Assembly: GCF_000385565.1 (NCBI RefSeq)
Contig: NC_021169.1
Coordinates: forward strand, 682,001 to 746,000
Direction of reading: 5' to 3'
DNA length: 64,000 nucleotides
Source of the DNA: Archaeoglobus sulfaticallidus PM70-1
GTDB taxonomy: Archaea; Halobacteriota; Archaeoglobi; Archaeoglobales; Archaeoglobaceae
The position numbers were made by a program, and so were the translations under genes. A model generated the notes under the pieces. The model made no database searches. It was not told the origin of the DNA and was given only the letters and a program-made list of their open reading frames with translations. Positions 46,226 to 48,829 of this stretch are shown in pieces (within the stretch, counting starts at the first letter, position 1; every line of letters begins with the position of its first letter).

Positions 46226-46634
46226 GAACCAAGTTGGATACGAGAGTTTAAAAATTTTGGTGGAGATCATTCTGGTGATGTAATTTGATATAATAGCCCC
46301 AAACTTTAATGCAACACAAACCTTGTAGTATCCTGAAATAACTTTACACCCCGAACAAACCTATGTGAGGAATCTAACCAACAGAGACATACTCAGAATG
46401 ATGAAACGGTGGCTGAAAAGTGAAATCGGTAAGAAAGATATCTGAATTCTCAGCTACAAGGCAGAGAATTTCAAAGAAACAGGCAGAATTCCTTCTTTCT
46501 CCCTGATTATCCATTCTATTACTCTCTCGTCAAGTTTCATGTTAGGATTTGGAGATGTGAGAAATAATTTCGGGAAAACACAAATTATAAAGCGAATGGA
46601 AATAATTAAAAAACGATAGCAGACAAATCTTAAC
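46226..46634. other. Gap of about 410 bases with transposase-like debris
   Basis: No intact gene. On the plus strand a short frame near 46366-46445 ends LRMMKRWLKSEIGKKDI and is not recognised. On the minus strand the 46454-46540 fragment resembles the start of a transposase. The remainder is A/T-rich spacer before the YhhQ gene. Confidence 0.4.
46454..46540 (-). pseudogene. Possible transposase N-terminal fragment
   Basis: MKLDERVIEWIIREKEG followed by about 11 residues to a stop. The K-L-x-E-x-x-x-x-W-I-I-R-x-K-x-x-G pattern resembles the first helix-turn-helix of archaeal IS-type transposases (IRxIIRxKxxG). It breaks off immediately. If correct, it marks an old insertion at the edge of the queuosine gene pair. 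Confidence 0.3.
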
Positions 46635-47345
46635 ATGCTCTACCAAAACGAGATACTCTGGTTTATCCTTCTCATAGTAAACTTTTCAGGGATTACCTTA
46701 GCATACAGATTATTTGGTAAGTCTGGACTCTATGCATGGACTGCAATGGCTATAATAATAGCCAATATACAAGTAATGAAAACAATAAAGTTCTTTGGAC
46801 TTGTTACAGCAATGGGGAACATCATCTATGGTTCTACATTTCTGGTAACGGATATTCTGTGTGAAAACTACGGGAAAGAGTCTGCAAGAAAAGCAGTGAT
46901 GATCGGGTTCTTTACCCTGATATTTACCACGATAATCATGCAGTTATGTCTTGCATTCATTCCCGATCAAAGTGACACTTTGAGTCCCGCACTCGAGCAG
47001 ATTTTCAGTCTACTTCCGAGAATAACCGTTGCAAGCCTCACAGCATACATCATAAGCCAGTTTCATGATGTTTGGGCATTTGATTTCTGGAAAAGAAAAA
47101 CTAAAGGTAAGCACTTATGGTTAAGGAATAACGCATCAACCATGGTTTCTCAGTTGATTGATAATGCGGTTTTTACATGGATTGCGTTCGTTGGATTTGG
47201 AATTTTCTGGGAACAGGTTTTCCCATGGGAGGTTATAGCAGAGATTTTCATCACCTCTTACATAATGAAATTCATTGTCGCTGTGCTGGACACACCATTC
47301 GTTTATCTGAGCAGGGTAATTAAGGAGTCATTGGCAGAAAAGTAA
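46635..47345 (+). CDS. yhhQ: Queuosine-precursor transporter (YhhQ/VUT family)
   Basis: 236 residues, about six membrane spans. Family landmarks: TFLVTDILCENYGKESARKAVMIGF (the D-x-x-x-E-x-Y-G-K motif), ASLTAYIISQFHDVWAFDFWK, RNNASTMVSQLIDNAVFTWIAF, and VAVLDTPFVYLSRVIKE. Bacterial YhhQ imports preQ0, preQ1 or related bases. The gene converges on a bacterial-type tRNA-guanine transglycosylase with only eight bases between stops, which makes a queuosine-related role likely here. It is A/T-richer by eye than the pyrG side. Confidence 0.88.
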   Translation: MLYQNEILWFILLIVNFSGITLAYRLFGKSGLYAWTAMAIIIANIQVMKTIKFFGLVTAMGNIIYGSTFLVTDILCENYGKESARKAVMIGFFTLIFTTIIMQLCLAFIPDQSDTLSPALEQIFSLLPRITVASLTAYIISQFHDVWAFDFWKRKTKGKHLWLRNNASTMVSQLIDNAVFTWIAFVGFGIFWEQVFPWEVIAEIFITSYIMKFIVAVLDTPFVYLSRVIKESLAEK

Positions 47346-47353
47346 GTGTAATG

Positions 47354-48547
47354 TTATTGATAACCCAACCATCTCTTTTTTAATTCGTAAAATGCTCCAC
47401 TTTCAATAGAATCACGAATTTTTTCAACAAGCCTGATAATGAAGTAGACATTGTGGTATGATGCAAGTCTGAAGTATGTGAGTTCATTGGAAACATAGAG
47501 GTGTCTGAGATAGGCTCTTGAATACTCCTGACATACAAAACAATCACAACTTCTATCGACTGGATTTGTGTCAAATCGGAATTTTGCATTCTTGATGTGA
47601 ATTCTGAATTTGTTTTCTGGTTTTCCACCTTCCTCAGGGCTAATGTAAAGATGTCCTCTCCTTGCCCACCTCGTTGGAGCGACACAATCGAACATATCTA
47701 CGCCCCGTTCAATACAATTGAACAAATCCTCGACCGCACCTATTCCAAGCAAATGTCTGGGTTTTTCCTCCGGTAAAAGCGGTATAACCCATTCAAGAAT
47801 GTTATGCATATCCCTCTTGCTCTTTCCAAGTGAGCCTCCAATCCCAAAACCATCAAAATCTCTTTCCGCCATGAATTTTGCCGACCTTTCTCTCAAATCC
47901 CTGTATTCTCCCCCTTGAACAATTCCAAAAATTGCCTGCTTTTTATTATAATACTGAAGGCATTCTTCAGCCCATCTGTGGGTTCTTTCAAGAGCTATTT
48001 CCGTATATTTTTTGTCCGATAAAGGAGAAGTGCATTCATCAAATGCAAAAATGATGTCGGAACCAAGGTTTGATTGTATTTCCATTGATTTTCTTGGTGT
48101 GAGTTCAACGATCTCCCCGCTTATATGATTTTTGAATCTTACACCTCTGTCATCCACATAAGCCCATTTCTCACCCTTAAAATCAATATCTTTCAATCCC
48201 TCAAGGAAAATATTATTCGCAATCTTTCCAACTCCGTGCTCCATACCAAAACCAAGTGAGAATGCTTGAAAACCCCCAGAATCAGTTACAATGGGTAAAT
48301 CAATGTTCATGAATTTGTGCAATCCACCAAGCTTTTTTATTACCTCGTCTCCAGGACGGAGGTGGAGATGATATGTGTTTGCAAGCAAAACCTCCGCACC
48401 CATTTCTTTCAAATCCCTGTTATCAAGTCCTCTAACACTCGCAAGGGTTGCCACAGGTATAAAAACCGGAGTATTAAATTTTCCATGCTTGGTTTTTACA
48501 ACACCTGTCCTCATTCTGTCTAATGTTGTGTCAATTTTGAATTTCAT
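47354..48547 (-). CDS. tgt: Bacterial-type tRNA-guanine(34) transglycosylase
   Basis: 397 residues, about 380 being usual for bacterial TGT and far shorter than archaeal arcTGT with its PUA domain. Active-site map: Asp89 in TDSGGFQAFSLG, Asp170-Glu-Cys172 in FAFDECTS, Gln211 in FGIVQGG, nucleophile Asp287 in GVDMFDCVAPTRWARRGHLY, zinc ligands Cys334, Cys336, Cys339 and His365. The loop after GIGG reads SLGKSKRDM, one residue shorter than the LAVGE-type loop of preQ1-specific enzymes and Gly-containing as in queuine-using enzymes. It exchanges G34 of GUN-anticodon tRNAs for a 7-deazaguanine. Such an enzyme is not expected in an archaeon, which uses position 15. Confidence 0.9.
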   Translation of the reverse strand: MKFKIDTTLDRMRTGVVKTKHGKFNTPVFIPVATLASVRGLDNRDLKEMGAEVLLANTYHLHLRPGDEVIKKLGGLHKFMNIDLPIVTDSGGFQAFSLGFGMEHGVGKIANNIFLEGLKDIDFKGEKWAYVDDRGVRFKNHISGEIVELTPRKSMEIQSNLGSDIIFAFDECTSPLSDKKYTEIALERTHRWAEECLQYYNKKQAIFGIVQGGEYRDLRERSAKFMAERDFDGFGIGGSLGKSKRDMHNILEWVIPLLPEEKPRHLLGIGAVEDLFNCIERGVDMFDCVAPTRWARRGHLYISPEEGGKPENKFRIHIKNAKFRFDTNPVDRSCDCFVCQEYSRAYLRHLYVSNELTYFRLASYHNVYFIIRLVEKIRDSIESGAFYELKKRWLGYQ

Positions 48548-48746: not shown

Positions 48747-48829
48747 GCCGGGGTGGCAGAGAGGCACTGCGCGAGCCTGGAGAGCTCGTGTCCCTTTGGG
48801 ACGCGTGGGTTCAAGTCCCACCCCCGGCG
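48747..48829 (+). tRNA. tRNA-Ser (anticodon GGA)
   Basis: 83-nt class II cloverleaf: acceptor GCCGGGG/CCCCGGC, anticodon stem CGAGC/GCTCG with loop CTGGAGA (anticodon GGA), long variable arm GTCCC-TTT-GGGAC, T arm GTGGG-TTCAAGT-CCCAC, discriminator G. No CCA. It borders the tgt gene, a common place for transferred DNA. Confidence 0.93.

Follow-up and report, generated by a model that had tools for sequence, protein, structure and literature searches.

The window, i.e. the whole 64,000-nucleotide stretch of DNA analysed here, comes from the genome of Archaeoglobus sulfaticallidus PM70-1, which consists of one contig of 2,076,931 bases. At the locus under study, a gene for a queuosine-precursor transporter (QPTR) faces a gene for a bacterial-type tRNA-guanine transglycosylase (bTGT), and their features are given in Table 1. 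The sequence bears out the positions and lengths of the two convergent open reading frames proposed by the first-pass annotation, including the eight bases between them, as well as the tRNA-Ser placed beside the pair. As a kept neighbour of the TGT, this tRNA did not stand up to comparison, since no tRNA was found in the available flanks of five loci from the same genus, and three other relatives have a different tRNA at 0.9-3.8 kb from the TGT locus. The "transposase scrap" proposed on the other side, a minus-strand ORF of 60 amino acids (46454-46636), gave zero Pfam matches, which weakens that assignment.

Table 1. Features of the transporter-transglycosylase locus (positions in the window)
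Feature	Position	Strand	Description or basis
QPTR/YhhQ queuosine-precursor transporter	46635..47345	+	236 aa, class A clade; TIGR00697 and Pfam Vut_1
Gap separating the two convergent stop codons	47346..47353	.	8 bases, read from sequence
Bacterial-type TGT, short-loop long subtype	47354..48547	-	397 aa; TIGR00430, tree, fold match
Specificity loop, residues 237-247 (GGSLGKSKRDM)	47807..47839	-	alignments; one residue shorter than GGLAVGEPKEDM/GGLSIGEPKE.M
Subfamily insert, residues 99-131	48155..48253	-	33 residues vs. 5-16 in canonical enzymes
Nucleophile Asp287	47687..47689	-	alignment-invariant; position by homology to Z. mobilis TGT
Zinc ligands Cys334, Cys336, Cys339	47531..47548	-	alignment-invariant
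Zinc ligand His365	47453-47455	-	alignment-invariant
tRNA-Ser(GGA)	48747-48829		near TGT

Family assignment, fold and base pocket

The transporter scored 263 bits against TIGR00697, far above the cut-off (50.95) and in line with the YhhQ-family importer first read from the sequence, and 191 bits against Pfam Vut_1. As for the TGT, it reached 552 bits with TIGR00430 (cut-off 306.75) vs. 136 bits with the arcTGT model TIGR00432 (cut-off 350), and Pfam recognised the TGT domain only, the PUA domain being absent. The catalytic pair Asp89 and Asp287 and the zinc ligands Cys334/336/339 and His365 were invariant in the alignment of archaeal homologues. Family scores, catalytic and zinc residues and the missing PUA domain thus agree with the bacterial layout suggested at first, and place the enzyme outside arcTGT. 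Its AlphaFold model (mean pLDDT 87.5) superimposed on the Z. mobilis TGT with TM-scores of 0.85-0.91, which confirms the fold; the insert region has a low model confidence and is left unplaced by the structure model.

The first-pass annotation had described the loop after GIGG as shorter than the LAVGE loop of preQ1 enzymes, and the alignments show that it has one residue less. The window loop (GGSLGK) departs from the preQ1-type motif GG[LV][SA]VGE: the Val of LAVGE is gone, and the position of the loop Glu, occupied by Lys, Asn, Gln or Arg in the subtype, is Lys in the window enzyme. This Val of the preQ1 enzymes would clash with queuine, and queuine-using TGTs carry GG[LS][AS]G (PMC11570991), a motif in which the Ser of GGSLG fits and the Leu at the fourth residue does not. 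Concerning the rest of the pocket, the equivalent of Z. mobilis Tyr106 is Phe93, and Cys172 is retained at the position of Val in the queuine-binding Z. mobilis mutant (PDB 4hqv, listed in the database as the queuine complex of the Y106F/C158V/V233G mutant). With Cys172 retained and Lys in place of the loop Glu, the pocket exactly matches neither the E. coli enzyme nor the published queuine motif. The loop change would be compatible with a bulkier base than preQ1.

Distribution and phylogeny of the short-loop subtype

TIGR00430 matches above the cut-off were found in 56 of the 394 Halobacteriota genomes. QueA occurs in eight of these 56 genomes and in none outside them; the 48 bTGT genomes that are devoid of QueA all lie outside the QueA-linked TGT group. 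All readable QueA-free Halobacteriota bTGTs have the loop shortened by one residue (GGSLG), within GIGGSLGKSK in all Archaeoglobi and AIGGSLG[NQ][CS]K in Methanotrichaceae and family f7, and their segment after DSGGFQ.FSLG spans roughly 31-38 residues, more in a few cases, vs. 5-16 in canonical enzymes. This short-loop long subtype is present in 32 of the 55 Archaeoglobaceae. Within the Archaeoglobi, bTGT was found in 7 of the 13 genera of family f1 and also in a second family (f3). The short loop and the insert were also seen in Woese- and Pacearchaeota, one Thermoplasmatales MAG, many Chloroflexota, one Trueperaceae MAG and an alphaproteobacterial endosymbiont, and QueA was not found in the Woese-, Pace- and Thermoplasmatales genomes examined. 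The QueA-linked archaeal TGTs carry GIGGLSIGEPK or AIGGLSIGEPK, have no insert and adjoin QueA.

Other loop types were observed as well. Two candidate-phyla TGTs beside QueA (L174 and L212) have a third type, GGESIGY/GGETIGY, and a tree position near the archaeal short-loop enzymes, and DPANN TGTs (L273-L278) show the variants GGFFGESK, GGSFGKDE and GGSFGRN, with no QPTR within the short flank available.

In the quick TGT trees, computed with no bootstrap, with a few long-branched rows and, for the tree described here, without the loop and insert columns, the Archaeoglobi TGTs form one clade (SH-aLRT 96), nested in a clade with those of Methanotrichaceae and DPANN (SH-aLRT 96). The bacterial short-loop TGTs share this archaeal clade's side of the tree, whereas a separate clade (SH-aLRT 100), placed among canonical bacterial enzymes, holds the QueA-linked archaeal TGTs. 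One archaeal origin of all bTGTs was rejected (AU test on the quick tree, p = 0.02), so that at least two acquisitions by archaea are likely on this phylogenetic evidence.

Acquisition of the window gene with a mobile element in recent times was also rejected, since the TGTs of the class form one monophyletic group, the putative transposase ORF is without Pfam match and relatives do not keep tRNA-Ser beside the gene. Horizontal transfer had been suggested at first: its local, possibly mobile form finds no support, given the spread of the subtype across the class and in other archaea, and any transfer from bacteria must, for the same reason, be old. The window TGT is a member of an old subfamily, and not a recent stray import.

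Pairing with the transporter and genomic background

When the neighbours within 4.5 kb of the TGT were clustered into families, QPTR was the only gene recurring beside the subtype across archaeal groups (34 loci, 9 of 12 groups), with any other family reaching at most three groups; no third recurring partner emerged among them. The two genes are mostly convergent in Archaeoglobaceae and DPANN, and overlap on the same strand in Methanotrichaceae. In the transporter tree, the window QPTR shares a clade with the QPTRs that adjoin the TGT in DPANN and Thermoplasmatales. Because the TGT partners fall in two deep QPTR clades, the pairing would have arisen, or been kept, more than once.

Among the Archaeoglobaceae, class A QPTR is found in 29 of the 32 genomes with bTGT (31 counting two partial matches) vs. 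3 of the 23 without (Fisher p = 5e-9, or 7e-11 with the partial matches, values which overstate the case because related genomes are not independent), and per genus in 7/7 with bTGT vs. 1/6 without. The class B QPTR is spread over 13/32 and 9/23 of the same genomes (p = 1), and was consequently discarded as a TGT partner. The recurrence at 34 loci and the tracking of bTGT by class A argue, at the level of gene content, for the functional pairing suggested by the first reading. Of the two QPTRs of the source genome, the second is a class B copy (L123:5313-6032, i.e. G000:C1:1493312-1494031; 190 bits against Vut_1), the cargo of which could perhaps be preQ0.

A true arcTGT (TgtA) is also encoded in this genome (611 bits with TIGR00432; locus L122), followed by ArcS (553 bits with NF040592), and QueC was detected with 235 bits, so that preQ0 and archaeosine should be made, as had been presumed for this organism. 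QueF (PF14489), QueA (PF02547) and QueH (PF02677) gave no match in the source genome, the same searches giving matches in control bacteria; in the 55 Archaeoglobaceae, no QueA was found and no QueH above the cut-off. With all three absent, preQ1 should be neither made nor matured by QueF/QueA/QueH, and preQ1 made by the cell itself was rejected on the lack of QueF. We know of no use of QueG without QueA. The PF14489 (QueF-family) genes of Archaeoglobaceae (genera g2, g6, g8 and g10), which may be QueF-like archaeosine synthases, occur mostly in bTGT-free genera. As for the potential targets, the four GUN tRNAs are present, each with U33-G34-U35: Asn(gtt), Asp(gtc), His(gtg) and Tyr(gta), the latter with a 23-base intron.

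Predicted function and comparison with known systems

Queuine is a vitamin-like base, and the pair probably constitutes a direct queuine-salvage system of the Chlamydia type, acting at G34 of the four GUN tRNAs. Queuine set free by other microbes would enter through the class A QPTR, and the short-loop TGT would swap guanine for it at position 34 of tRNA-Asn, -Asp, -His and -Tyr, so that queuosine occupies the wobble position. Archaeosine at position 15 would be made separately, by TgtA and ArcS. We infer all three elements, i.e. that queuine is the base taken up and inserted, that transport is inward and that position 34 is the target. For bacteria that have tgt and QPTR only, queuine salvage is the expected route, and Chlamydia trachomatis follows it with a TGT of changed specificity (PMC11570991); the source genome has the same complement, with tgt and QPTR present and QueF, QueA and QueH absent. 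This reading is further supported by the split between QueA-linked archaeal TGTs, which keep LSIGE, and QueA-free ones, which have GGSLG, by class A QPTR tracking bTGT when class B does not, and by an endosymbiont-family TGT (L235) with an adjoining QPTR and the same GGSLG loop. It is weakened by the ability of Bartonella, another organism with tgt and QPTR only, to use preQ1 (PMC11570991), and by a loop that misses the strict motif, with its Glu replaced and Cys172 kept. Also to be counted against it are the Chloroflexota carrying the subtype, where the 1.5 kb around the TGT holds no QPTR, so that archaea show the pairing best, and the Trueperaceae and Anaerolineae MAGs with a short-loop TGT (L253 and L254), each of which has a divergent QueA-like gene (187 and 168 bits, in open frames of 561-591 aa).

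Could the subfamily have a new role, on another RNA or DNA target or at another tRNA position? Its insert and changed loop mark it as distinct, and DpdA, a TGT relative, acts on DNA, but such a role is very improbable given the retained catalytic and zinc residues, the score of 27 bits with the DpdA model NF041059 (cut-off 200) and the steady pairing with a 7-deazaguanine transporter, no DNA-modification gene or other family recurring as a further partner. Closer to queuine salvage, the departure of the loop from the strict queuine motif means that another 7-deazaguanine could be inserted at G34, either self-made preQ0 or an undescribed base imported by the QPTR. QueC, TgtA and ArcS point to preQ0 production, the loop is without the Glu of preQ1 enzymes and archaeal COG1738 proteins have been proposed as preQ0 importers (PMC5372724); this is nonetheless rather unlikely, as a cell making preQ0 gains little from an importer of its own, yet class A tracks the TGT closely, the separate class B QPTR could serve preQ0, and a smaller base would need no wider pocket. 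Should the short-loop archaeal TGTs at large insert such a base, neither queuine nor preQ1 (preQ0 or an undescribed one), at position 34, a new wobble nucleoside would exist beside archaeosine-15 in Archaeoglobi, Methanotrichaceae and some DPANN, a prospect we regard as unlikely. Imported preQ1 could also stay as the final modification, like in Bartonella henselae, which has tgt and QPTR, no QueA, and preQ1 in its tRNA (PMC11570991), and preQ1 would indeed need import in a genome without QueF. It is quite improbable here, because the Bartonella TGT keeps GGLAVG while the window TGT and its clade do not, and the QueA-linked TGTs show that archaeal preQ1 enzymes keep the LSIGE loop.

To our knowledge, descriptions of queuosine confine it to bacteria and eukaryotes, archaea being said not to make it. 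With such a salvage pair spread over several archaeal lineages, archaeal tRNA would be expected to contain queuosine or a sister nucleoside, but only where the environment supplies the base, so that cells grown in defined medium could lack it. If queuine salvage is true, archaea would be the third domain taking queuine from bacteria. The archaeal COG1738 transporters, suggested to import preQ0 (PMC5372724) and so far assumed to do so, would then split into groups with different predicted cargo. Neither a QueA-free salvage type nor queuine salvage as such was found described for archaea in the literature covered, a limited negative given that it was largely without subscription papers and preprints.

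The window TGT shares its superfamily with arcTGT (TgtA), which is a separate gene in the source genome, and has the fold, catalytic Asp, zinc site and target loop architecture in common with the preQ1-type Tgt of E. coli and Z. mobilis, from which it differs by a loop without the Val and Glu of LAVGE and by an extra segment of 24-48 residues after DSGGFQ.FSLG. Bacterial Q genes in archaea are already known, since Castelle et al. (2021; PMC8204110) described archaeal genomes with a bacterial Q pathway (QueA, QueH-like, Tgt). Their system is alike in having a bacterial-type TGT in archaea, but its TGTs adjoin QueA and QueH, whereas the window TGT is QueA-free; the QueA-linked archaeal TGTs examined here, with an LSIGE loop and no insert, branch with canonical bacterial enzymes, unlike the window TGT. 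The pair also resembles the Chlamydia trachomatis type, with bTGT and QPTR only, no QueA, QueH or QueF, and a loop altered from LAVGE. Compared with it, the window pair lies in an archaeon that should also make archaeosine, and its TGT has an extra insert and a GGSLG loop shorter by one residue.
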